From NCBI GenBank assembly GCA_027449865.1, contig DAIDKV010000082.1, positions 1 to 64,000 of the forward strand: a stretch of DNA of 64,000 bases, given 5' to 3'. Both the position numbers and the translations under genes were made by a program. How positions within the stretch are numbered: position 1 is the first letter of the stretch; the number at the start of each line of letters is the position of its first letter. Below the pieces are notes generated by a model. It ran no database searches, was not told the origin of the DNA, and saw only the letters and a program-made list of their open reading frames with translations. Origin of the DNA: Planctomycetales bacterium (GTDB lineage: Bacteria > Planctomycetota > Planctomycetia > Isosphaerales > Isosphaeraceae). Below, one piece after another: positions 4,142 through 38,638 of the stretch.

Positions 4142-7100
4142 TCATCGTCCGTGGCGGTGTCGATGAGTCGTGGTCAGGATTCCGAGGGCCGTTAGCATGG
4201 TCTGGTGAGGCTTCGCGGTCGCCGGATGGTGGATTCCGGGCGAGGTCGCGACCATCGGATGTCGGGCACGGAACACCGAGGCCGGGCCGGACGGGTGCTT
4301 CCTCTCGCTGGCCATCGCCTGACGGTGCTGCGGGCTGTTGCCGACGAAGAACGAGCGGTCAGCCAAAACCGGCGCCGAACTGCTGGGTGCGTAGGTCGTC
4401 GTCCCGACGACCGCTCCGTCGTAGCGAACCACGATCGTCTTGTTGAAAACGACGCGACCCTTCACGTTGAACGTGGCCTGGCCGCTGGCGTCGAGGTTGA
4501 CCGAGGCGATCGGCAGGCCGTCGGCCAGGAGCGTGACGGGGCCGACCGGCGTCGAGGCGCCCGAGGTTCCGCTGGCGACCGTCACCGAGACCTTCAGACG
4601 GGTATTCCGGCCTCCAAGCGAGGCTGGAACGGTCGAGGGCAGCGGCAGGTAGATGGGCGTCACCGAGATCGCCGTGTTCACTGTTACAGGAGCCAGCGGG
4701 TTGGTGGTCACCAGCGTCGTCTGCGCCGAGGAGTGGCTCGGCGCCACGCCGCCGCTCGACGAGGTGAACGCCGCCGTGAACGAGTGGTCGCCCTGCGAGA
4801 GATCGGGCAGGCTAAGTGTCGCCACGCCCGAGGTCGAGAGCGGCACCGTGCCAATCGCCTTGCCCCCGTCGAAGAACTCAACCTGGCCCGTTGGGTCGGC
4901 CGTCCCCGCACCGACCAGGGCCGAGAGCGTGATGACCGATTGCGAGTAGGCCGAGGCTGGGGCGACCAGCGTGATCGACGAGGCGAGGACCCCCACGCCC
5001 TGGACAGCCACCGATGTCGAGGCCGAGCCACCGCCGTCGTAATTGGCGTCGCCCGAATTATAGGTGAACGCGATCGAGTGATCGCCCGGGGCGAGCGTGC
5101 TGAGCGTCAGGACGGCCCGGCCGTCCACCAGCGGGACGTTCGAGGCGAGCGTGGTGCCAGTGGTCGTGTCGGTGAAGCTGGCCGTTCCGGTCGGCACGGC
5201 GCTACCGGGCGTCGCCGGGAGGACCGAGCCGATGAAGGAGACCGGCTGGCCGGCGGCGACCGTCGGCGTCGAGGTCGCGATCTGGACCATGGGCGTGGCC
5301 TTCGTCACCGTGACGGTCGCCGTGTTCTGGCTCCTCTCGAAGGCCATGGTCCCACTGAACAGCGCGGTGACGGTGTCCGACCCGGTCGGCAAGCTGGGCA
5401 CCTGCAGCGAGGCGTTGCCATTGGCATCGATGGGGACAAGGCCGAGGAAGGTGTTGCTCCCCAACAGATAAAAGGCAACGTTGCCGGTCGGCGCGATCGA
5501 CGTGCCGGTGGTGATCACCTTCGCAAGGAACTGGGCCGTCTGGCCGTAGGACACCGGACCTGGAGTGGCCTGAAGCGTGGTTGTCGTCGGCGCCGGGATG
5601 TACAGGACGACGTCGGCGCCCGAGGCCCCGCCGGAATAACTGAGGAAATAGGTCTGGCCGCCGAGCGTAATGCTGGAGCCCTCGGGGAGCCCGTTGAACG
5701 TCCCGGCGATCGCCGCGCCGCCAGGGTTGGAAATCAGGGTGTAGACCGATCCCGGCTGGGCCGCCAGGGCGCCCAGCGACTGGAGCTGGAGCGTCGAGCC
5801 CGAGAGGTTGATCGGCGATTGAGGCCCGACCGACGCGGGGACGATCTGGATCTGCGAGTAATCGGTACCGGCGATCGGCTGCTGGCCGGCGACCGAGGGG
5901 CCGCCCAGGCCGAAGACAAACGTCTCGCCAGAACCGGGGTTCACCGAGGTGAAGTGGAGGATGCCAGCGGACGTCGGACTCCCGGGCGAGATCGTGCCGT
6001 TGCCGGTCGAGACGTAGGCGCCGACGGTCCCCTGGCCACTCGCCCCGTTGATCGTCCCTCCGGAGTCGGAGACGCCCGGCAGGACCGCGCCGGGGGCGAC
6101 GGTCAGTGTCGCGGAGGCGGCGACCGCGATCGGGGAGGTCAGGCCGGCGGCGAGATGGCCCGAGGCGATCATGGTGCCGGTGTTGTCGTTGACCTGTCCG
6201 GCCTGGAACTTCGGGCCGCCGTCGAGAGTGAGAACCCCGGCGCCGGTGCTGTTGAACGTCATTGAGGAGACCGATCCGGCGATCGTCCCCGACTGGCTCA
6301 CGCTGACGCCGATGGTCTGGCTGGGAGTGGAGAGCGTCGAGGTGGCGTCGGCCAGCAGGGTGTCGGCCTGGAGGTTGAAGGGCTCCTGCACCGGCCCGTT
6401 CTGGCCGAAAATCCCGCCGGAGTTGGTGATCTGGATGCCGTATCCGGGCGCGGTGCCGGTCTGGCCCGAGGTCCCGGCGTAGACCGGTGTGGCCGAGAGG
6501 ACGGCCTCGGTGAAGAGCTTGGAGCCGATCCCGTCGATCAGGAGGCCAGAGTTGCCGCCGCCGGTGCCGTTGCCGCCGGTGCCGTTGACGGAGAAGGTAC
6601 CGGTGTTGCTGCCGTTCCAGAGGAGCTGGCCGCCGGCGGTCAGCGCGACGCCCGAACTGCCGGTCGAGTTCGAGCCGCCGCCGCCGGTGCCGGCGACAGC
6701 CATCGAGGCGCCTGTCGAGGTGATCGCCGAGCCGGTGCCGGTCACGAAGAGGCCGTCGTCCTGGCCGATCCCGTAATTCCCGCCGTACGCGGTGATCGAG
6801 AGGGCGCCGGCGGTCGAGGTGATCGAGGCGCCCGAGTCAACGCGGACGCCGACATCGTAGCCCTGCGAGCCGTTGGAGCCGCCGCCGGTCCCGGTGAGGG
6901 TGAGGCCCGGGGCTGTGATCTTCGTCGAGGAGTTGCCGGAGACCAGGACGCCGGCATCGTTCCCACCGCCGCTCCCGCCGTAGCCGTAGAGCTTCAGCGG
7001 GCCGGTCGTGTTGATCTGGCCGCTGGACGTCACGGCGATCCCGACGTCGTTCCCGGCGTCGCCGGCGTGCCCCTTGCCGTACCCGTAGATCAAGAACCCG

Positions 7101-10100
7101 CCGTTGCCTCCGAGGCTGCCGTTGGTGCTCACCTGAACGCCGTCGCTGTACCCGTTGCCCGGGCCCCCGGTCCCGTTGATCGAGCCCTGGGCCGTCACGG
7201 CGACGATCTTGCCGCCGTTGGAGACCTGGACGCCGACGTCGCCGCCTCCGTCGCTCGCGGAGCCGCCGCCGGTGCCGTTCAGCGTGATCGCGCCGCCGCC
7301 GGAGGTGATCTGGGCGCCGGTCCCGCTGAGGTATCCGTTGACGGAGACGCCGACGCTGCCGCCGCCCTGGCCGCCCTGGCCGGTGACCGTCACGGTCCCG
7401 GTTGAGCCGGCCGAGACGTTCGACCCGGTGGCGATGTAGACGCCGAAGTCGGTGGAGTCGGCCGAGGTGCCGCCGCCGGTCCCGGTGATGGTGAGGTCGC
7501 CCGAGCTGGTCGTGGCCGTCGAGCCGTTGGCCAGCTTCACCCCCGCGTTGTTGCCCTGACTGGCCGTCCCGCCCTTGCCGGTGATGGTGAGGGTTCCCGT
7601 CCCGGTCTCGCTGATCGTCCCGCCGGAGTCGTAGACGCCGATGCTCTGCGAGCCGTCGCTCGACTGGCCGCCGGTCCCGTTGAGGACGATCGAGCCGGAA
7701 GTCGTCGAGGTGATTGTGGACTCGTCGATGTGGACGCCGAAATCCTTCGAGCCGCCGACGCCCCCCGCGCCCTGGATCGAGACGTTGCCGCCGACCACCG
7801 GCGTCGGGCCCGGCGTGCCCGTCGTGATCTGCCCAGATCGGACGATGATCCCGGCGTTCGATCCCTGGCCCGAAGCCGAGCCGCCTCCGGTCCCGACCAC
7901 CGTCACGCCGCCCTGAGTCGACTCGATGGCGCCGGAGGAGTTGAGCAAGATGCCGTAAGAGTAGTAGCCTCCCTGCCCGCCGATCCCGGTCACCGAGACA
8001 TCCCCGGTGGTCGTCGTCTGGATCGTCCCGCCGAGGACCAGGATTCCGATGTCGTTGGAGCTACTATCGGCCGCCGAGGCGCCGCCCGTTCCTTTGACGG
8101 TGAGCTGGCCACTCGTCGCGTGGATCGCACCGTTTTCGACGAAGATCCCCTTGTTATTGTCCGACGGCTGGCCGCCAGCCGAGAGCGCGGAGCCGCCGGT
8201 CCCCGTCACGGTCACGTTGCCGGTCCCAGTGGTCCCGATGGTCCCGGTGAGCTGGACGCCATAGTTGTTGATCGCGCCCGACCCGCCGGTACCGGTGACG
8301 ATCAGGTTGCCGGAACCGGTCGCCGTGATGGTCGAGCCCGACATGTCGCGGATGCCGATGTTCTGACCGCCGGTTCCCGTGTCGCCGCCGGTGCCGGCGA
8401 CCGTGACCGAGCCACCCCCCGAGGTGATCGTCGAGTTTAGGACCAGGGAGATGCCGATTTCGTAGCCGCCGCCAACCGACGTGCCGCCAGTGCCGGTGAC
8501 CGAGACCGTCCCGGTCCCCGTTGCTTCGACGGTCGTGCCATTGTAGAGGTAGATACCGTAGGCGACGGCCTGTTGACCGGCCGAGGCGCCACCCGTCCCG
8601 ACGAGCGAGAGATCGCCGGAGCCGCTCGACTTGATCGTCGCCTTCTTGGCATAGATCCCCTGATCGGCGGAGGCCGACGTGGTGGCCGACGTCTCGGCGC
8701 CGCCGATGCCCGTGATCGAGACGTTCCCGTTTCCGCCCGGCGAGAGGGTCTGGCTATTGAGGAAGACGCCCCGATCCCGATTTTTCCCCTGTCCGCCGGT
8801 GCCGGCGATCGTGACGTCGCCGCCGACCGTCATGGTTGAGCTACCGATGTAGACGCCGGCATTATAGCTGCCGGTCGCCCCGCCGTTGCCGCCGTATCCG
8901 GTGATGAAGAGTGCGCCCGTCCCGCCGGGAGAGACCGATGCACCGGTCAGGTTGACGCCGACGTTGTTCGTGGCGCCCGCCTGGCTGCCGCCGGTTCCCT
9001 TGATGGTGAGGTTGCCCCCGGCCGTCGTCGCGGTGGCGCTCGAGTCGATGGCCACGCCCTGGTTCTGGTTGTTGCCCACGCCGCCGGTCCCGGTGATCGA
9101 GGTCGATCCGGTGCCCGTGACGGTGATCGAGGCGTTGGTGCTCAGGTCGACGCCGTAATTATGGTTCGAGGTGGAGCCGGTGCCGCCGCCGGCCCCACTC
9201 AGCGAGATGTTGCCGTTGTCCGAATGGACGATCCCGCCATTCGTCACGAAGACGCCGGTGGCATAGTAGCTGCCGGCGCCGCCGGTCCCGTTGATCGTCA
9301 CATCGCCCGATCCGGTCGCCTGGACCTGCCCGCCGCTCCAGACCACGACCCCGGCATCGCCGTTGGCGGTCGCCGAGCCGCCGCCGGTCCCCGTGATGGT
9401 GAGGTTGCCGTCGGCCGACCGGAACGTCCCGCTGGCACTCGCGTAGACGCCCGACTCTACGTAAGTGCCGCCGCCGCCGGTGCCGTTGACGGTCAGGTTA
9501 CCGGAACTGGTCGCCTGGACTGTGCCGCTGCTGTTGACGGCGGCCCCGAAGTTATGCTTGCCGGTCGTCGTGGACAGGGCGGTGCCCGTTACGACGACGT
9601 TGCCGCCCGTCTGGAGCGATGAGCCGCCGGTGACCATCACGCCGTCGTTGTAATTCGTCCCGCCGCCGCCGGTCCCGTTGATCGTCACATCGCCCGAGGT
9701 CGAGGACGCCGTCGCGCTGGTGGTGAGCAGCACGCCGTAATTGTTCGCCGCGGTCGCCGTCGCATCGCCGAGACCGGTGATACTGAGCGTGCCGGCCCCG
9801 CCCGCCGTGACGGCCGTGCTCGAGTCGGAGATCCGGATGCCCGTGCCGTTGTAGGATCCACTCCCGGCCGTACCGTCGAGCGTGATGTTGCCCGAGACGG
9901 TGGACTTCACCGAAGAGGCGCCGTTGATCTGGATGCCATCGTTGTCGTGGCCCCCAGCGCCGGCGTTTCCGCCCGTGCCCTTGATCGAGATCGGGCCGGT
10001 GGCCGTTTGGATCGACGAGTTGTTGACCCAGACGCCCTGGTTGTTATTCCCCCCGGCGCTGGCGCCTCCGGTCCCGATCAGCGCGATGCCGCCGGTCCCG

Positions 10101-12928
10101 GTGGCCGAGATGGTTGAGCCATTCTCGACGTCGACCCCGTCGCTCGCGGTGGAGTTGGTCGTGCTGCTCCCGCCGATCCCGGTCATCGAGATGTTGCCGG
10201 CGCCCGACGTCGTGATCGTCATGCCAGAGTTGTAGACGCCAGCGGAGTTGCCAGCGCTGGCGGAGGCGGTCCCGGAAAGGCTCACCGAGCCGCCGGTCGT
10301 GGTGATGCTCGACGCATTGAGGCGGATGCCATACTCGTTGGCCCCGCTGCCGCCGGCGGTGCCGACGATCGAGATGTTGCCGACAGTCGTCGAGAGAACC
10401 GCCCCGTTCGTATCGGGATCCAGGCCCACGCCCATTGACCACTGGTTTCCCGGGCCGCCGGTACCCGTGATGGAAAGGTCGCCCTTGCCGGTGGCGTCGA
10501 TCTGCGCACCCTCGATATAGACCCCGTAGTTGGAAGAACCCGAGGAGTGGCCGCCGCCCTGGCCCTGGATCGTGATCGAGCCGTCGACCGACTGGACGGC
10601 CGGAGTGGTCGGCGCCCCGTCGAGGATGAAGACGCCGTCTTGCGACGAGCTGCCGACGCCACCCGTTCCCTTGATGGAGATCGGAGCCGATCCCGAAGCG
10701 ATCACCTGGCCGCCTCCGGCGATCTGCACGCCGTAGTCCACGACCGACGTCGAGCTGCCGCCGCCCGTTCCAGTCAACGTGATCCCGCCCGCCGAGGTGA
10801 CGTTTCCTCCCGTGCCGGTGATGAGGACGCCAAGGTCATTGAGCGAGCCGACACCGCCCGTCCCGGCGATCGTCACCACCCCGCCCGCATTGATCGTCGC
10901 CGCGTTGATCTGAACGCCGTATTCCTGGCTCGCGACGGCTTTGCCACCGGCCGACCCGCTGATCGAGGCCGTTCCCGTCGGGCTGAGAACCTGCGCCGAC
11001 GTGAGGATATCCACACCATCGCTGCTCTGCCCAGCCGCCGCGCCGGTGCCATTGATCGCGACCGCGCCGCCCGTCGTCGACTCGACCAGGCCCCCCGCCT
11101 CGACCGCCACGCCGGAATCGTTCGTACCGGTCGCGGAGAATTGCCCCGCGGTTCCGGTGATCGAGAGCGACCCGGACGCGGTCGTGACGCCGCTGCCGTA
11201 GCCCTTGCTTCCATCGGTGATCTGGACGCCGTCTTCCTGCCCGCCCGACGCCGCGCCACCGGTCCCGATGACGGTGACAGAGCCCGTCCCGACGCCGGCG
11301 ATCAGCCCTCCAGAATCGAGATGAACCCCGGCGTTCTGCGAGCTAGCGGTGCCGGCCCCGCCGCCCCAGCCCTGGACGAGGATGTCGCCGCCCGAGGAGG
11401 TCACCAGGCCGAGGTTCGCTCCCGTGCCGGTCCCGCTGAGATACACCCCGACGCTCAGATTGCCCCCGCCGGCCCCGCCGGTGCCGTACAGTTTGACCGT
11501 CCCCATCCCGCCGGCCGTGATCGTCCCCTGGGGGGCGACCTGGATGCCGAAGTCGTAGATGGAGTTGGTGTCGGTCGCGAGGCCGCCACCCTTCGCGGCA
11601 ACGATCACATTCCCGCCCGAGGACGTGATCATCGCCCCGGCGTTTCCGACATAGACGCCGATATTTGCTGGACCGGCGTCCGAGCTACCGGTCGCCTGGA
11701 CGGTCACGTTCCCGAGCCCGCCAGCGGTGATCACTCCCCCGATCCGAACCAGGACGCCGTCGCTCAATCCAGTGCTGGTCTGCGAGCCGCCGCCGGTCCC
11801 GTTGACGGCCACGTTCCCGCCGCCGGACGTGATCGTCGGCGACGGCCCGGCGTCATAGTTGAACAGCACCACGCCGCAGTTGTCCCCGCCCGTCGAGGCG
11901 CCGCCCGTCCCGTTGACCGTGACGGGACCTACGTCGCCGGTGCCGATCGAGCCGCCCGTGGCGACCAGCACGCCGAAATTGTTTCCCGCCGTCCCGGTCC
12001 CCCCGCCGCTCCCGCTCACCTCCACCGCTCCACTGCCCGATGTGATCGATGCCGACGTGCTGGTTCCGCCGGTGCCGAGGCTCAACGGATCGGAGTAAGT
12101 GCCCGAGGCCCACACGAAGACGCCGTGGTCGCTATTTGACCCCGCGCCGGCGCTCCCGTTCACCGTGACGGCGCCGGACTGCGTCGAGATCGTCCCGCCG
12201 TCGACGAGGACGCCGTAGTCCAGGCCCTGATCGGTGGCGGTGCCATAGCTTGACCCATTCACGGTGATCGGGCCTCGATCGTCCGTGACCGACGCCCCAC
12301 CGCCGACCAGCACGCCGACGTTGTGGCCGGAGGTGGTCCCACCCCCGAAGACGCTCCCATTGACGGTGAGGCTGCCGCCACCCACGACCGCCAGATGCGA
12401 GCCCGCCTGGACGAAGACACCGAACGCCGCGTTCGTGCCATTCGACGAATCGCCGACGCCGTTGATCGTCAGATTCCCGTAAGAAGTGATCGTGGCGTTA
12501 TTGGCGATAACGACTCCATTCTGACTGGTTCCGGCGGCGGTGCCGCCGTTGTCCGCCCTCAGCGTGATATCGTAACCGGCCAGGGTCGAAAGATTAGCCT
12601 GGACGCTGAGTATCCCCCCAGAATAAACATCCAGGCTCGTCTGACAGCCCAGAACCGGGGACTGGAAGAGGATCGACCCGGTCGCATGAAGCACGATCGG
12701 CGAGGTGGCGCCGATCAGGGCGGAGGGATCGATCGTGTAGGTGCCGTTGTCGATGAACGACGAGGCACCCGCAGGGATGGAGGTGGATCCGCCCGTCGCG
12801 ATGGTGATGGAGGCGGCCAGGAGTTGCCTCGATTCGAGCAAATCCATCACCAGCGCCTTGCTACGCGTCGCGGTCCGACCCCTTCTCGACCCCCGTACCC
12901 CAGCGATCGATCCGGATGCCTTCCCCAT
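4142..12928 (-). CDS. Giant extracellular repeat protein with LEPR-XLL-like N-terminus and Ig-like C-terminal domains
   Basis: This 2928-residue product dominates the window. The N-terminus is basic and then shows MDLLESRQLLAA (residues about 28-39), a variant of the planctomycete LEPR-XLL motif found on very large exported proteins. There follow some 2100 residues of tandem units of roughly 33-40 residues with the pattern GVxV..GG.I...G.G.VTV.GTGG......N, very rich in Gly, Ser, Thr and Val, as expected for a right-handed beta-helix. Near the C-terminus are three or four Ig-like domains (for example TTLQATPGPVSYGQ and PVGPVTLLADG) and a His/Arg-rich tail. No sortase motif, autotransporter barrel or PEP-CTERM is visible. 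The start at 12928 is preceded by GGGGAGGGG; the track's 45 extra residues lack this. It is probably a surface or matrix adhesin. The function is inferred. Confidence 0.85.
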   Translation of the reverse strand: MGKASGSIAGVRGSRRGRTATRSKALVMDLLESRQLLAASITIATGGSTSIPAGASSFIDNGTYTIDPSALIGATSPIVLHATGSILFQSPVLGCQTSLDVYSGGILSVQANLSTLAGYDITLRADNGGTAAGTSQNGVVIANNATITSYGNLTINGVGDSSNGTNAAFGVFVQAGSHLAVVGGGSLTVNGSVFGGGTTSGHNVGVLVGGGASVTDDRGPITVNGSSYGTATDQGLDYGVLVDGGTISTQSGAVTVNGSAGAGSNSDHGVFVWASGTYSDPLSLGTGGTSTSASITSGSGAVEVSGSGGGTGTAGNNFGVLVATGGSIGTGDVGPVTVNGTGGASTGGDNCGVVLFNYDAGPSPTITSGGGNVAVNGTGGGSQTSTGLSDGVLVRIGGVITAGGLGNVTVQATGSSDAGPANIGVYVGNAGAMITSSGGNVIVAAKGGGLATDTNSIYDFGIQVAPQGTITAGGMGTVKLYGTGGAGGGNLSVGVYLSGTGTGANLGLVTSSGGDILVQGWGGGAGTASSQNAGVHLDSGGLIAGVGTGSVTVIGTGGAASGGQEDGVQITDGSKGYGSGVTTASGSLSITGTAGQFSATGTNDSGVAVEAGGLVESTTGGAVAINGTGAAAGQSSDGVDILTSAQVLSPTGTASISGSAGGKAVASQEYGVQINAATINAGGVVTIAGTGGVGSLNDLGVLITGTGGNVTSAGGITLTGTGGGSSTSVVDYGVQIAGGGQVIASGSAPISIKGTGGVGSSSQDGVFILDGAPTTPAVQSVDGSITIQGQGGGHSSGSSNYGVYIEGAQIDATGKGDLSITGTGGPGNQWSMGVGLDPDTNGAVLSTTVGNISIVGTAGGSGANEYGIRLNASSITTTGGSVSLSGTASASAGNSAGVYNSGMTITTSGAGNISMTGIGGSSTTNSTASDGVDVENGSTISATGTGGIALIGTGGASAGGNNNQGVWVNNSSIQTATGPISIKGTGGNAGAGGHDNDGIQINGASSVKSTVSGNITLDGTAGSGSYNGTGIRISDSSTAVTAGGAGTLSITGLGDATATAANNYGVLLTTSATASSTSGDVTINGTGGGGTNYNDGVMVTGGSSLQTGGNVVVTGTALSTTTGKHNFGAAVNSSGTVQATSSGNLTVNGTGGGGTYVESGVYASASGTFRSADGNLTITGTGGGSATANGDAGVVVWSGGQVQATGSGDVTINGTGGAGSYYATGVFVTNGGIVHSDNGNISLSGAGGGTGSTSNHNYGVDLSTNASITVTGTGSTSITGTGGVGNNQNQGVAIDSSATATTAGGNLTIKGTGGSQAGATNNVGVNLTGASVSPGGTGALFITGYGGNGGATGSYNAGVYIGSSTMTVGGDVTIAGTGGQGKNRDRGVFLNSQTLSPGGNGNVSITGIGGAETSATTSASADQGIYAKKATIKSSGSGDLSLVGTGGASAGQQAVAYGIYLYNGTTVEATGTGTVSVTGTGGTSVGGGYEIGISLVLNSTITSGGGSVTVAGTGGDTGTGGQNIGIRDMSGSTITATGSGNLIVTGTGGSGAINNYGVQLTGTIGTTGTGNVTVTGTGGSALSAGGQPSDNNKGIFVENGAIHATSGQLTVKGTGGASAADSSSNDIGILVLGGTIQTTTTGDVSVTGIGGQGGYYSYGILLNSSGAIESTQGGVTVVGTGGGSASGQGSNAGIIVRSGQITTGTPGPTPVVGGNVSIQGAGGVGGSKDFGVHIDESTITSTTSGSIVLNGTGGQSSDGSQSIGVYDSGGTISETGTGTLTITGKGGTASQGNNAGVKLANGSTATTSSGDLTITGTGGGTSADSTDFGVYIATGSNVSAGSTGTVTVTGQGGQGGGSVGVSVNGYLSGTGAQITSGGGAITLNGTGGGSASDGGGDVGVQVSNGGKIVAVTAQGSINGTGGPGNGYSDGVQVSTNGSLGGNGGFLIYGYGKGHAGDAGNDVGIAVTSSGQINTTGPLKLYGYGGSGGGNDAGVLVSGNSSTKITAPGLTLTGTGGGSNGSQGYDVGVRVDSGASITSTAGALSITAYGGNYGIGQDDGLFVTGTGSAITSTGASMAVAGTGGGGSNSTGSSGVALTAGGQLLWNGSNTGTFSVNGTGGNGTGGGNSGLLIDGIGSKLFTEAVLSATPVYAGTSGQTGTAPGYGIQITNSGGIFGQNGPVQEPFNLQADTLLADATSTLSTPSQTIGVSVSQSGTIAGSVSSMTFNSTGAGVLTLDGGPKFQAGQVNDNTGTMIASGHLAAGLTSPIAVAASATLTVAPGAVLPGVSDSGGTINGASGQGTVGAYVSTGNGTISPGSPTSAGILHFTSVNPGSGETFVFGLGGPSVAGQQPIAGTDYSQIQIVPASVGPQSPINLSGSTLQLQSLGALAAQPGSVYTLISNPGGAAIAGTFNGLPEGSSITLGGQTYFLSYSGGASGADVVLYIPAPTTTTLQATPGPVSYGQTAQFLAKVITTGTSIAPTGNVAFYLLGSNTFLGLVPIDANGNASLQVPSLPTGSDTVTALFSGTMAFERSQNTATVTVTKATPMVQIATSTPTVAAGQPVSFIGSVLPATPGSAVPTGTASFTDTTTGTTLASNVPLVDGRAVLTLSTLAPGDHSIAFTYNSGDANYDGGGSASTSVAVQGVGVLASSITLVAPASAYSQSVITLSALVGAGTADPTGQVEFFDGGKAIGTVPLSTSGVATLSLPDLSQGDHSFTAAFTSSSGGVAPSHSSAQTTLVTTNPLAPVTVNTAISVTPIYLPLPSTVPASLGGRNTRLKVSVTVASGTSGASTPVGPVTLLADGLPIASVNLDASGQATFNVKGRVVFNKTIVVRYDGAVVGTTTYAPSSSAPVLADRSFFVGNSPQHRQAMASERKHPSGPASVFRARHPMVATSPGIHHPATAKPHQTMLTALGILTTTHRHRHGR

Positions 12929-13275
12929 CGTCCCCTCCCCGGTAGCTGACTTGTCGTGGACCTGGCCCGTCGGATCGCCCGGCGCGGGTCCCCCCTGGAC
13001 CCTGCGCGCGACAGGACGCCGGGGCCACATCGGCGAGGTGGACCGCGCGAGACCCCGACACACGGACCATAGAACATCAACTCGTGAATGGGAACTCGAC
13101 GCTTCAGGGTCGATTCGAACGATCGATTTCCTGAAGCCGCGTGCGCTGAGGATCGGGCACCTCGCTTGGACCGGCGCGGAGGGATGGGTATCCTGTTGGG
13201 CTGTCGAGCGCTCGGAACCCAGACCGGGCGAAGGGCGCTGGGATCGACCTCCGGCATTTTTTCGAGGTTAGAAAC
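12929..13275. other. Intergenic region between divergent giant-protein and cyclophilin genes
   Basis: About 350 bases separate the two divergent start codons and must hold both promoters. The ORF track extends the giant protein into this region, but codon content and the strong ribosome-binding site at 12928 argue against that. I see no tRNA, no clear paired -35/-10 elements and no strong hairpin. A weak TATGGT box on the minus strand near 13069 is not convincing. Confidence 0.4.
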
Positions 13276-32166: not shown

Positions 32167-32958
32167 ATGGCCGAAACCTGGCAGGACGTCCGATGTGCCC
32201 GGATCGCCGCGGCCGACCTGCCCGCGCTGGCCGATCTTCGCCGCGAAGGCGCGATCCATCTGGCCATCGACGGCCCATTCGCCTGGATCTTCTGGGATGA
32301 CGACTCCCGTGAAACCGGGGTCACGCGTCGCGTCCTGCTGGAGCGGCTCTTACCGCTCCCGGGCGTTGAGATGCTTACCCGACGCGAAGGAATCTGGTAT
32401 CGGCCTGGCGAGCACCTCCCCTCGTTCGAGGTTCCATCGATCGTTCCAGGATCATCAACGTTTCTCCATCGCTCGATCCTGCCCGGCGCGATCCCGATCG
32501 CAGCGGCGAATGCTGATCCTTTCTGCCCGGTCGAGCTTCGGGTTGTGCGCGAGGACCGGGGACTTGCGCGTCCGGCGTCGGCGCTTCGGTGCCGGCTCGG
32601 CGACCTGGCCCGATGGGCCGACCTCGCGCCGACTGTCCGGATCGAGTCTCTCCTCGGCGCCTGGTGTCCGATCAGTGGCGATCCGGGAGCGGTCCAGGCC
32701 CTCGTGATCGCTCGCAACGCTTCCCTTCCGGAGATTCCCGACGGATCTCGATACTGGGGCGACTCGGTCCTGATTCCGATCGGGTTCCGGACCGATCCGG
32801 AGCTGGCCGAAACCTCGATGCGAGAGGTCGTCGGTGCTCTTCCCGATGAGCTGGTGATTCTCGACACGGCCAGCCGCGAATTGATCCCGCGCGAGGCGTT
32901 CCGGACGCTCCGTCGCGCCGGGATTCGGACGGCGATGGCGGGAGGGGGACCGTCATGA
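32167..32958 (+). CDS. Second small component of the bpX cassette
   Basis: A 263-residue protein. The first 80 residues (VRCARIAAADLPALADLRREGAI, then FAWIFWDDDSRETGVT) look alpha/beta, and VPSIVPGSSTFLHR and ESLLGAWCPISGDPGAV follow. No catalytic motif is recognisable and there is no membrane segment. It resembles the small conserved proteins that sit between the MoxR ATPase and the vWA-propeller gene in bpX-type operons, possibly an adaptor. Its stop overlaps the next start by four bases. GGGAGGA precedes its own ATG. Confidence 0.7.
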   Translation: MAETWQDVRCARIAAADLPALADLRREGAIHLAIDGPFAWIFWDDDSRETGVTRRVLLERLLPLPGVEMLTRREGIWYRPGEHLPSFEVPSIVPGSSTFLHRSILPGAIPIAAANADPFCPVELRVVREDRGLARPASALRCRLGDLARWADLAPTVRIESLLGAWCPISGDPGAVQALVIARNASLPEIPDGSRYWGDSVLIPIGFRTDPELAETSMREVVGALPDELVILDTASRELIPREAFRTLRRAGIRTAMAGGGPS

Positions 32959-35828
32959 GCCACCGACGCGCTGCCCTCTACTTGCAGATCCCGGCCACAT
33001 ACTGTCGGTCGTTCGGCGGCCTCCGATGGGCGCAATACGGCGAGGTGGTCGAGTTTCTGGACGGTCCGGAAGCCGGACGGACCTTCGTCTTCGCTGGCGA
33101 GATCGCACCGTTCCTTGAAGGGCTGATGGCTGACGGCGGTCCGTGTCCGGCGTTTGGGATGGTGCTGCACCTGCTTTACATGCTGGGCCTCGGCGATCGG
33201 TCCGCATCGCCCGGGAAGCTGGCCTGGCTTCAGACGGGCCGGCTTGCCGTATTGTTCCGTGATCAGGGGAATCCACTTCGCAATGCCGGAGCGCTGTTCT
33301 CCCACGTCCTCCGCGAGATTCCCGCTTCAATCGGCGTCCCGGATCCTCCGGCGATCGAGGAGGTGCTGGAATTGCTGCGCGGCGGCGGCTGGCTCCCGCA
33401 AATGGTTCTCAGCCACCCCATGCTCGGCGCGATTGATTACGCCGAGCAGCCCGCCGCCGAGGCCCTGGCCTTCGAGTCGATGATCTCCAGTCAGCTCGAC
33501 GCGTTGTCGGACGAGGCGATCCGCCACTGGCTCCAGTTCGGCCGAGGCCCGCTCGACACGGGCAACGACCTGGCGCTCCCGCTCCCGCCGTCAGACCTTT
33601 CGGAGGCGCTGGCGAAGGTCGCGGAGCGCCCGAGGCTCGCCGGATTGATTCGACTGATCGACCGACTCGACGGAGCGCTGAGCCTCCCCCCGCGCCGGCT
33701 CGACCACGACGGCCCGCAGTCCGACGGCTACTCCGACCTCGCCACCCGCGGCCAGCCCGAGCAGATCCTTCCCATCCAGCTCGCCCTGGAACCCGAGGAG
33801 TTCCTCCGCCGCTTCGCCGAGCGCGAGCTACTCTACTACCACCGGGAAAGGCCCACCCGTCCGGTCGTGCAGGAGCTGGTCCTCGTCCTCGATCAGGGGG
33901 TGCGGACCTGGGGCGATGTCCGGCTCGCGCTCGCCGGCGCGACGATGGCCCTGGCCCGACGCGCGGGACTACGTCGGCTGGCTGTTCGACTCGCCACGAC
34001 CGGCCGCGACGGCGAGGCCGTTGATCCCGCCACGCTCGATGCCGAGGCGCTCGGAAAACTCCTGGAAGCCAGCGACCTGACGCCCAACCCGTCCTGGGCG
34101 CTCGACCGAATCCTCTCGGTCGACCGCGAGACGATCCGCGATGTCGTCCTCCTGACGCATCCGCGCACGCTGGTTGATCGCGAGGTCCGGGAGGTCGCGG
34201 AAGTGATCCGGCCCGGCGATCCGACGCGCCTCTTCGCGGTGACCGTCGCCAGTAACGGCGAGGTTGAGCTGGCCGAGGTTCGCGGCGGTCGTCCGATTGG
34301 ACTCTCGCGGTGCCGAATCGATCTGTCGGAGCGAGAGATACCGCCTGCTCCCGTGCCGGCCGGGGTCGTGGTCACGACCGGCCCTCGGCACGCCTGGCGC
34401 GGGCCCGTCGAGAAAATTCCGATGCCATTCCGCACGGGAATCCTCTCAAAGCCGAGGATAAGTGGCGCCCCCGGCTGCCGCCTCGTCGACTTCGACGAGT
34501 CGGGCGATCGCCTTCTGGTCATCATGCGGCATCGGCTGCTCTACTCGTTTCGCCTGGACGGCAGCGACGCCGAGTTCCTTCCCCGGCCGGTGATCGCCGG
34601 CGACGACGCCGCGAAGATCTTCGCTGTCATCGGAGTCGCCGGTGGATTCGTGCTGGTCAGCGAGGGAGAGACGGGCCCGATCCTCTTCCACTACAACTTT
34701 GAGACCCGAACCTGCCGGCACCACTCGTTTCACAGGTTCGACCGACCCGAACCGATCTTCTGGACCTATTACGCGGACCTGCACACGATCGTCGGCGGGA
34801 TCGGTCATGAACTGGAAAGCCTGGCGATCGATCTGACTCGAGAAGGCCCCGATGCAAGGGCCGGCTGGCGAACGGAGCAGGCCATTCAGCGATCACGGGA
34901 GAACAATCCGTGGCGCTGGCCGTCGGCGATCTCGTTTCGGCCGCCGTTTGCTGAGAAGCACTCGCTCGGCGGAAAAACCGTCGCGCTCGTCCCCGAGACC
35001 GGGACGCTGCGCTTCTGGAGCGACACGGGCGAGACCCGGAGCCTGACACCCACCAGAGACGGACGGCCCGCCCTCCGGGGTGCCCGGATCTTGTCGATCC
35101 AGCGCGGGGAAGATGTGCTGACCCTTCAGCTCGAGGCCGGTTCGCGATTCGAGATCTGGTTTGTCTCAATGGCGAGGACGGCGGTGATCGGGACGTTCAC
35201 CGCGAGCCATGAGGGATCGGGCCAGGGCTGGTTCTCCCTCTCAAGAGACGGGAGCCGCTTCGCGCGTCGGGCCGGCGACGATCAGGTCGAGGTCGGACGG
35301 GTTCCCGGCGACGACTCGCCGATCCACGTCACGCCGCGAGAGCCGGCCTGGAACCACATCGCATGGCTCGGCCGGTCTTGCCTGCTGGTCCGCGAGTCGG
35401 ACCGGAATGGCCTGCGGAGCACGATCAAGCCCCTCCTGATCCGATGGGACGGCGAGCGGCTCGTCGCCGATCAGGAAGACGCGTTGATGACGTTTCACCA
35501 GTTCGGTGGCCCCGCCGCTGAGTCGAGGAGCCTGACGCCCCGAGGCGCATTCCCCGACTACCACCACGCCCGGTTCAACCAGGTCATCGAGCACGGCTCG
35601 CTCCGCATCCTGGTCGACCCGTACAATCACCTGGCGGTCCTGGATCGCGCCGAGGACCGGCTGGTCGCGATCTTCTACGTCTCGGGGAATGAGTTCGCCG
35701 CCTGGATGCCCGACGGGACCCTCGCCGGCTCTCGTCGCCTGATCGGCGGCGAACCGACGAAGGCCGCCGCCGAGAGGATCGCCGCGGCGCTCCGGCGGGC
35801 CGAGCGCGGGGCAGGGGGGCTTCGATGA
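32955..35828 (+). CDS. vWA-like and beta-propeller protein of the bpX cassette
   Basis: A 957-residue protein. The N-terminal about 300 residues are helical and end in the block QILPIQLALEPEEFLRRFAERELLYY. Residues about 305-450 look like a vWA domain: the strand QELVLVLDQGVRTWG takes the place of the MIDAS DxSxS, but the Ser residues are missing, so metal binding may be lost. From about residue 505 a beta-propeller-like set of four-stranded repeats runs to the C-terminus (CRLVDFDESGDRLLV, FSLSRDGSRFA and SLRILVDPYNHLAVL). There is no signal peptide, so it should be cytoplasmic. Its ATG overlaps the previous stop and its stop overlaps the next start, both as ATGA. It is the proposed vWA/propeller partner of MoxR. 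Confidence 0.8.
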   Translation: MSHRRAALYLQIPATYCRSFGGLRWAQYGEVVEFLDGPEAGRTFVFAGEIAPFLEGLMADGGPCPAFGMVLHLLYMLGLGDRSASPGKLAWLQTGRLAVLFRDQGNPLRNAGALFSHVLREIPASIGVPDPPAIEEVLELLRGGGWLPQMVLSHPMLGAIDYAEQPAAEALAFESMISSQLDALSDEAIRHWLQFGRGPLDTGNDLALPLPPSDLSEALAKVAERPRLAGLIRLIDRLDGALSLPPRRLDHDGPQSDGYSDLATRGQPEQILPIQLALEPEEFLRRFAERELLYYHRERPTRPVVQELVLVLDQGVRTWGDVRLALAGATMALARRAGLRRLAVRLATTGRDGEAVDPATLDAEALGKLLEASDLTPNPSWALDRILSVDRETIRDVVLLTHPRTLVDREVREVAEVIRPGDPTRLFAVTVASNGEVELAEVRGGRPIGLSRCRIDLSEREIPPAPVPAGVVVTTGPRHAWRGPVEKIPMPFRTGILSKPRISGAPGCRLVDFDESGDRLLVIMRHRLLYSFRLDGSDAEFLPRPVIAGDDAAKIFAVIGVAGGFVLVSEGETGPILFHYNFETRTCRHHSFHRFDRPEPIFWTYYADLHTIVGGIGHELESLAIDLTREGPDARAGWRTEQAIQRSRENNPWRWPSAISFRPPFAEKHSLGGKTVALVPETGTLRFWSDTGETRSLTPTRDGRPALRGARILSIQRGEDVLTLQLEAGSRFEIWFVSMARTAVIGTFTASHEGSGQGWFSLSRDGSRFARRAGDDQVEVGRVPGDDSPIHVTPREPAWNHIAWLGRSCLLVRESDRNGLRSTIKPLLIRWDGERLVADQEDALMTFHQFGGPAAESRSLTPRGAFPDYHHARFNQVIEHGSLRILVDPYNHLAVLDRAEDRLVAIFYVSGNEFAAWMPDGTLAGSRRLIGGEPTKAAAERIAAALRRAERGAGGLR

Positions 35829-38638
35829 CCGTCCACGTCCGAATCCACCTCCGTCGACGGCCGGGCAGACCGATCGGGCCGGCCTCGGCGCTCCACATCC
35901 CCGGCCGAGACGCCGCCCGTCTTCTCGACGCCTGCGCCCGGGTCGGGATCGACCCCTCGGGCCGGATTCATGACCTCGACGGCGGGTTCCTGATCCGGCT
36001 CCCCCGGCCGACGGCCGAGCCGGTCCCGGGTGCTACTCGATTACGAGAACTGGCCCAGAACCTTTACGTCCCGGTGGACGCCGACCTCGTCCCCGCGCTG
36101 CTCGACGACGAGGCGGCCGGGATGGTCCGAGACGGCGGTCTCGTCCTCCTGCCGGCCGGTCCGGCGCTCCGGTTCGATCCCACGAGGCCCGTCCGCCTGT
36201 CGACGCTTCTCCACGTCGAGCGACCCCAACGCCGGAACTGGCAGCCGATGCCCGAACCCCGGCCAATCGCCGAGCGGATTGTCGAGATCTCGCGCGAGAT
36301 CCCCGAAACGCCGCCCGAGGAACTCTACCGCGCCCTCGAAGACGACGTCCGGCACCCCGACCGCCCGCGGTCCCGTCCGGAGCGGGCCGCGGATGACGCG
36401 ATGGAAGAGGCCGACATCGGCGAGGCCACGGGCGCCGGACGGATCCGCACGGCGGCCTCGGGCCTCGGCAACGCGATCCGGGGGCTGGCCGGGCGGGCTC
36501 GCTCCCTTCGCGACAAGGCTCAGTGGGGGATGCTCGATCACTCGTCGCTGGTCAAGAAGCTCCTCCGAGAGTTCCGGCAGGGGAACATGGACCGCGCCCT
36601 CCAGCATTCCTTCTCGATGCGAGAGGCCGACTCCCGGGCGAGCCGGGTGGTCTCGTGGGGCTTCCGGCTCCCGTTCCACCGGGCGATCTACAGCCTGAGA
36701 GACCTGCTGGGAGGCCCCGAGCGCGGCGGGGTCGCCGGCATCTGGCAGGCACGACCCGACCTGATGCACGAACTGCGCGAGGAGTACCGCAAGGCCGCGC
36801 TGCGGGCGATCCAGGCCGGAGACTTCCGCCGAGCTGCCTACATCTACGGTGTCCTGCTCGACGACCATCGAGCCGCCGCCCAGGCGCTCCAGCGCGGCGG
36901 CCTGCACCACGATGCGTCCATCCTTTATCTGAAAAAGCTCAACGATCGCCCCGCCGCGGCGCATGCGTTCGAGGCCGCTGGCCTGGTCGATCGCGCGATC
37001 GCCCTTTACAGCGAACTCGGCCTCCATGAGACCGCTGGCGATTTGCTCCGTCGGATTGGCGACGAGGAGGGGGCGAGGTCGGCGTACTTCCGGGCGGTGG
37101 GAGTCGCGAGGTCGGCCCATCCTCCCGATTTTCTGGAGGCAGGCCGGATCGCTGATCGCAAGATGGCACTGCCCGAGGCCGCCGTCAACTATTACGCGCA
37201 GGGCTGGGCCACGCGGCCATCGGCCAACGCAATAGCCTGCTCACTGGAGATGATCCGCATTCTCGCCTCGCGCGTCGAGTCGGCGTATCTCCTCGGGCTG
37301 CTCGACGAGGCCGACGAGTATTTCGACGGGATCGGCTCCGAGCGCGACGCCGGCCTCTTTTACAACGCGATCGTCGGCGCGGCCGCCGCGGTTCCCGAGA
37401 TCGCCGAGGAAGTCCACGACCGCGCTCGATCGGGCGTCGCGAGGGTCCTTCGCCGCCAGGTCGAGGCCGGGCGCCCGGCCTCGGCGTCGATCCATTCGCT
37501 GTTCCCGGCGACATCGGGGATCTGGACGCCGGCCTTCCTCCGCGACGCCCAGTTCGCCGCGACCACCGCCACCACCCATGATCGACCGGCGGAGCCCGAG
37601 CCCGAGACCCGGGGGAATCGCCATCCCCAGGGGCCGGGGATCCAGGTCGGCCGAGGGACGGTCGCAGCCGCCTGCCAGGCATCCATCACGCATCGTGTTT
37701 TCCTCGGCTTCTCCGACGGCCGGGTGCTCGCCTTCGACCCCTGGCCCAACCGCGTGGTCCCGGTCGGAATGGTTAAAGGAGCGATCGCGGCGATCGCCGC
37801 ATCGCCGGAGGGGGACGTCGTGGTCGTCCTCCGCCAGACCGAGCAAGGCGCCACGCTCACGACCTTCCTCGCCCGCCCCGACGGCACCTATCGCCCGCCC
37901 CGACCCGACATCCTCTCGTCGAGGTCGCCAACCTGGCTGACTCCGATCCTGGCGTCCGAGCCCTCGTGGTTCATCGGGCTGGGAAGCGATCGCGACCTGA
38001 TGATCCTCGACGCCGCCGGTGGGCTGCCGATGGCCTATTCCTCGTTCAGCGAGGTCACGGCGTACTCCGAGGAACCGGCTCCGGGCTGTGCTCTACTGCT
38101 CCCAGGCGAGTCGGGCTTCACGATTCTCACTCATGCCGGCCCGCGATGGGTGCTGCTCGACCCCGAGGGGCACGCGCTTGCCCGGTCAGGCCCGGCCTTT
38201 CGACCTCACGGCGGTAGCACTTCCCCCCGATGCACCGTGCCGCTCTCGTGGACCCGGCTCGAAGGAATGGTCCGGGTCGTTGGCCTCGACGCGCAAGGCG
38301 CCGTTCATTCCGCGGAATTCTGGTTCGCCGGCCCCGACACGATCGACCTCGGCGCCGTGCTCGTCGCGAGGACCGAGGGGGGCTACCAGGCCGCGACCCG
38401 CACGGCCACGGGGAAGGTCGTGGCTGTTTCATCCTCACGGATCGACTGGCTGAGCGACACGGCGGGCCGGTTCCATGTCGTCCACAGCCGACTCGACGGC
38501 GGCCTGGCCGGCACCGTCGCCTGTTTCCCCTCGACGACCTCCGAGGAAGTGCTGGTCGTCTCGGGCGACGGCTTCCTTTCCCGGATGGCGATCCCCCGCG
38601 GCTCCCGCCGGCAGCGTGGCGAATCGCCCACCAGATGA
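35825..38638 (+). CDS. Helical-repeat plus beta-propeller protein, probably bpX6-type
   Basis: A 937-residue protein with a mosaic structure. Residues 1 to about 150 are an alpha/beta N-terminal domain ([11 protein letters not shown], then [11 protein letters not shown]). A charged linker leads to about 250 residues of alpha-helical repeats resembling TPRs: [20 protein letters not shown]-like helix pairs, [39 protein letters not shown] and [22 protein letters not shown]. From about residue 610 a propeller-like region of beta repeats runs to the end ([32 protein letters not shown]). Such domain order fits the bpX6 component of MoxR-vWA-propeller systems. It is last in the cassette, followed by about 170 bases and then rpsO. 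No effector nuclease domain is visible in it. Confidence 0.8.

Follow-up and report, generated by a model that had tools for sequence, protein, structure and literature searches.

A predicted beta-solenoid array of about 60 coils in a giant, putatively exported planctomycete protein

Giant surface proteins of planctomycetes and the gene analysed

Giant proteins are common among Planctomycetota (PMC11573180), and the sequence RRLxxExLExRxLLA has been proposed as an export signal of planctomycete cell-surface proteins (PMC8567305, citing Studholme 2004). In Tuwongella immobilis, 52 proteins carry a version of this motif, including eight of the ten longest, and the motif-bearing giant proteins are taken as surface proteins; eight of the 20 motif proteins detected were confined to the SDS-soluble fraction (PMC8567305). 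Other described systems that invite comparison are the autotransporters with PATR repeats and the two-partner adhesins (TibA, antigen 43, EtpA, FHA), as well as proteins built with the bacterial Ig-like domain Big_3_5 (PF16640).

The giant gene considered here lies in a window, meaning the whole 64,000-nucleotide stretch that was analysed (contig DAIDKV010000082.1 of a Planctomycetales bacterium), and its frame agrees exactly with the initial annotation (Table 1). The start codon is an ATG preceded by GGGGAGGGG, which from its sequence would be the ribosome-binding site of the gene, a GTG at 13063 being a possible alternative start further upstream. The neighbours in the window (UbiD, PPIase and an aldo-keto reductase) give no hint to function. 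Elsewhere in the window (32955-38638, plus strand), two adjoining ORFs, 957 and 937 aa long, give matches to components of the MoxR-vWA-beta-propeller ternary systems, bpX0/bpX1 and bpX3, and the first of these matches falls below the cut-off.

Table 1. Features of the giant gene and its protein (window coordinates)
Feature	Position	Strand	Basis
Giant gene, 2,928 aa	4142..12928	(-)	Stop-free open frame; ortholog without frameshift over 1,546 aa
GGGGAGGGG, Shine-Dalgarno-like, 3 bases upstream of ATG	12932..12940	(-)	Direct reading of sequence
LESRQLLA, residues 31-38, core of planctomycete export motif LExRxLLA	12815..12838	(-)	Sequence; basic N-terminus before it
Predicted beta-solenoid array, ~60 coils of ~34 residues, residues ~128-2173	6410..12547	(-)	Unit HMM against shuffles; coil alignment and lengths; AlphaFold2
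Solenoid end and PATR-like segment (YTLI...GTFNGLPEGSS), residues 2200-2440	5609..6331	(-)	Paralog similarity
Ig-like domains (Big_3_5) and remaining C-terminal beta region	4349..5611	(-)	Pfam PF16640
Basic C-terminal tail, residues 2860-2928, net charge +8	4145..4351	(-)	Charge count; alignable in ortholog

The giant protein resembles the PF07595 (Planc_extracel) surface proteins in its size, its bacterial Ig-like domains and an LExRxLLA core, held by residues 22-38 (RSKALVMDLLESRQLLA), near a basic N-terminus (net charge +6 over residues 1-45), and long frames of its relatives also carry such motifs (LETRELL, LEDRQLL, LEKRQLL). Unlike them, it is devoid of the RRL part and scores 15.6-17 bits against a cut-off of 25.5, on the second half of the model only. 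The LESRQLLAA pointed out in the initial annotation is present at residues 31-39; taking it as a mark of giant planctomycete proteins holds insofar as it contains the core of the published signal, and falls short at the Pfam cut-off. Below-cut-off matches, likewise to the second half of PF07595, occur at 25 other places in the same genome, and a whole-genome search yields no site above the cut-off, so that the model may not fit this lineage. No hydrophobic signal peptide is visible in the N-terminus (maximum KD19 1.17). Membership in the LExRxLLA-exported surface proteins is thus likely rather than proven, because the PF07595 score stays below its cut-off even though the motif is present, and the motif lends moderate support to export of the protein.

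At the other end, the Ig-like domains expected behind the array were recovered as four Big_3_5 stretches (best at residues 2453-2542; E 3.4e-37; 127.3 bits against a cut-off of 35.5), which, unlike in Big_3_5 proteins as such, account for no more than a portion of its final fifth. Residues 2222-2731 are 39% identical to a paralog in the same genome (G000:C125) that carries PATR/TIGR02601 repeats, which suggests that residues 2200-2440 are PATR-like; Pfam gives no PATR match in that segment. Could the protein then be the passenger of a type V secretion system, an autotransporter or a two-partner TpsA haemagglutinin, with the same rod exported through an outer-membrane barrel? The PATR-like end, the paralog, the Gly/Thr/Asn-rich coils and the predicted parallel solenoid rod described below would all suit such a passenger, but searches of Pfam and NCBIfam at E <= 1 return neither a beta-barrel family nor a TPS/haemagglutination domain, the C-terminus consists of Ig-like domains and a basic tail rather than a barrel, and, unlike TibA, antigen 43, EtpA or FHA, the protein has two coil types that alternate, each coil spanning about 34 residues, and gives no significant structural match. 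A type V passenger is therefore improbable.

The coil array and its predicted fold

When an HMM of the repeat unit is iterated on the giant protein itself, 59 units from residue 128 to residue 2173 score above 3 bits, whereas 20 shuffled versions of these residues give 0-1 units each; the HMM overlooks two units (480-517 and 1848-1882). The total of about 60 coils bears out the repeat number estimated beforehand, and the periodicity check proposed for the translated protein thus found its repeats. Tandem repetition stands, with the period corrected from 33-40 to 33.8 ± 2.9 residues (mean from the coil alignment). The coil consensus runs [VI]-x-G-T-G-G (x also [TN]), followed by a variable loop and G-V-x-V and then, past a short turn, by x-I-x and G-x-[VL]-[TS] (G-x also G-N), the last of which leads on to the next coil; hydrophobic residues occupy fixed alternating positions and the Gly positions are near-invariant. 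The units had been described as near-identical, which they are not: pairwise coil identity averages 34% (90th percentile 45%), and Tandem Repeats Finder detects no coil-period array in the DNA, with only rows of 15-24 bp in about two copies within the gene. The duplications behind the array are therefore old. The array is acidic (net charge -64; 35 K+R and 99 D+E in 2,156 residues), in contrast to the two basic ends of the protein, and it matches no entry in Pfam, NCBIfam or PDB.

The AlphaFold2 model of residues 1050-1308 turns eight coils into 24 strands, three per turn (pLDDT 91.6, pTM 0.92), from an input alignment composed mostly of the array's own segments, plus those of the ortholog. 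In a second model (residues 1917-2460, ortholog-only alignment), strands are predicted with a pLDDT mostly of 73-94 across the first 200 residues, and the model is unreliable past about residue 2200 (pLDDT < 50). The array is thus predicted with high confidence to be a beta-solenoid, its modelled tandem coils being stacked with about three strands per turn, and the initial description as beta-helix units is well supported by this prediction. The outcome set beforehand as a refutation, a disordered chain, is not what the eight-coil model displays. The composition of the protein (Gly 21.6%, Thr 13%, Ser 12%) might have suggested a Gly-rich, low-complexity filler, largely disordered or silk-like and devoid of a defined fold; against this speak the confidence of the eight-coil model, the fixed hydrophobic and glycine positions, and an ortholog alignment almost free of indels, which together make such a filler highly improbable.

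Foldseek searches of PDB and BFVD gave no match at E <= 0.001, and sequence searches of PDB with the array gave none, so that no solved homolog is available to name a function. The weak Foldseek matches are mostly beta-helices (beta-helical adhesins, lyases and tailspikes). Many of them are polysaccharide-degrading right-handed beta-helix enzymes (pectate lyase, PL6 or GH28-like) and tailspikes, so that the array might be thought to be such an enzyme; yet every match has E > 0.05 and a low TM score, Pfam detects no catalytic family in the protein, and few residues of the array are charged, leaving this reading very improbable.

Distribution, divergence and growth of the array

Searches with a profile of eight coils detect the array in eight of 45 genomes of the family and in two of the five of the genus (cut-off 1e-8), several of these genomes being incomplete, and in 8 of 294 across the phylum (cut-off 1e-10), where the frames reach 13,571 aa. 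In its own genome it is single-copy. In another planctomycete family, the frames at L053, L054 and L056 (7,909-13,571 aa) combine these coils with stretches that look Calx-beta-like by eye. A purely structural, non-adhesive component of the envelope, such as a wall or S-layer-like fibre, would agree with the surface assignment and the SDS-soluble fraction of the T. immobilis motif proteins, but so sporadic a presence, read with the incompleteness of several genomes in mind, is unusual for a core part of an envelope, and this alternative seems rather unlikely.

Among the 45 family genomes the sole ortholog was found in another member of the genus, on contig DAHZZC010000643.1; searching the genome contigs with the giant protein alone gave no match, and with the window/ortholog alignment only this known contig. 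The two proteins are 78% identical over 1,546 aa (dN 0.15, dS 0.33, dN/dS ~0.45), with three one-residue indels and no gain or loss of a coil, a comparison that spans residues 1383-2928 because the ortholog contig starts within the array. Every comparable coil (22 of 22) is closest to its positional counterpart (76.5% identity against 40.7% with other coils), a pattern that gives no indication of concerted evolution. The variation in copy number between strains that had been suggested is therefore not borne out by this one ortholog, whose coil number is equal in the compared part.

Divergence is uneven along the alignment. In residues 1785-2384 (window 5777-7576) both dN and dS are reduced, dS being 0.11-0.24 against ~0.5 before residue 1684, about two- to four-fold below the preceding array, and this tract may have recombined recently between species. 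Conservation is highest at residues 2085-2184 (95% identical), and the idea of a functional site there was set aside: dS is low in this stretch too, so that its conservation is equally explained by recent recombination or local rate differences. The genomic place also differs. The ortholog is followed by other genes than the giant gene is, and UbiD in the ortholog genome is followed by DNA ~95-97% identical to that of a genus member with no detected array. Where the window has the giant gene beside UbiD, G002 and G003 have other genes, in DNA ~95-97% identical between the two (L074 compared with L072), and at another stretch G002 and the window are 88-89% identical (L075). In these draft assemblies, chimeric contigs are a possible source of the differing gene places. 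Next after the ortholog come four same-strand genes of ~370-470 aa (L051, 4703-9920) with similar starts and one weak HEAT-like match, possibly a tandem gene family.

Two alternating coil types are observed, weakly in the window and strongly in distant relatives. In the window, the loop after GTGG changes between long and short 45 times in 58 steps, against an expected 29.4 ± 3.8, with the cut at 14/15 picked after looking at the data. Coil similarity there is higher at even than at odd distances (difference 0.026, P 0.0015), the loop-length correlation is by itself marginal (P 0.05-0.07) and the whole-array parity of pairwise identity is not significant (P 0.17). The even-odd difference reaches 0.32 in L043, 0.10 in L053 and 0.18 in L055, equalled in 0 of 2,000 permutations each, and is missing in L039, L040 and L041; in L043 it is inflated by recent duplications themselves. 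Tandem DNA duplications were found in L039 (402 bp, four coils) and L043 (186 bp, two coils; 372 bp, four coils). The alternation and the duplications are most simply explained if arrays grow by coil pairs that later diverge. A second type of repeat stands behind the coil array of the 3,416-aa frame in L043 (3632-4929), in units of 207/414 bp whose 414-bp copies are 90% alike.

Probable role and significance

Taken together, the protein is best read as an exported giant planctomycete surface protein, a solenoid rod with C-terminal Ig-like domains that serves as stalk, matrix fibre or adhesin, at a probability of roughly 0.62; matrix fibre or adhesin, as proposed from the outset, would be the likeliest role. 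The basic N-terminus and LESRQLLA would direct the protein out of the cytoplasm, some 60 coils stacked at about 0.48 nm apiece would form an acidic, stiff rod about 29 nm long, and the Ig-like domains and basic tail would anchor or display this rod at the envelope or matrix, where it could work in any of these three ways. The likeliest contact surface would be formed by the variable loops that follow GTGG, in which long and short forms tend to alternate. The array probably grew by duplicated pairs (or fours) of coils, which then diverged before their number became fixed.

The giant protein most likely belongs to a known kind, the planctomycete giant surface proteins, with a coil family absent from both Pfam and NCBIfam; the literature searched on such proteins contained no description of an array of this type. 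More tentatively, the coils may represent an uncatalogued planctomycete family of beta-solenoids in which two unlike coils, A and B, make up the true repeat, with alternating loops on one face and even-numbered growth followed by a freeze, so that rod length would act as a conserved, species-level ruler for surface structures made of proteins that can exceed 10,000 residues.

The function of the giant proteins of Planctomycetota is mostly unknown, and a coil type with no database entry now has a testable fold and a repeat unit of two coils that recurs in more than one family, in an array that provides short, expressible segments for structural study. The frozen array of the giant gene, set against the freshly duplicated ones of L039 and L043, offers a way to ask whether rod length is selected.
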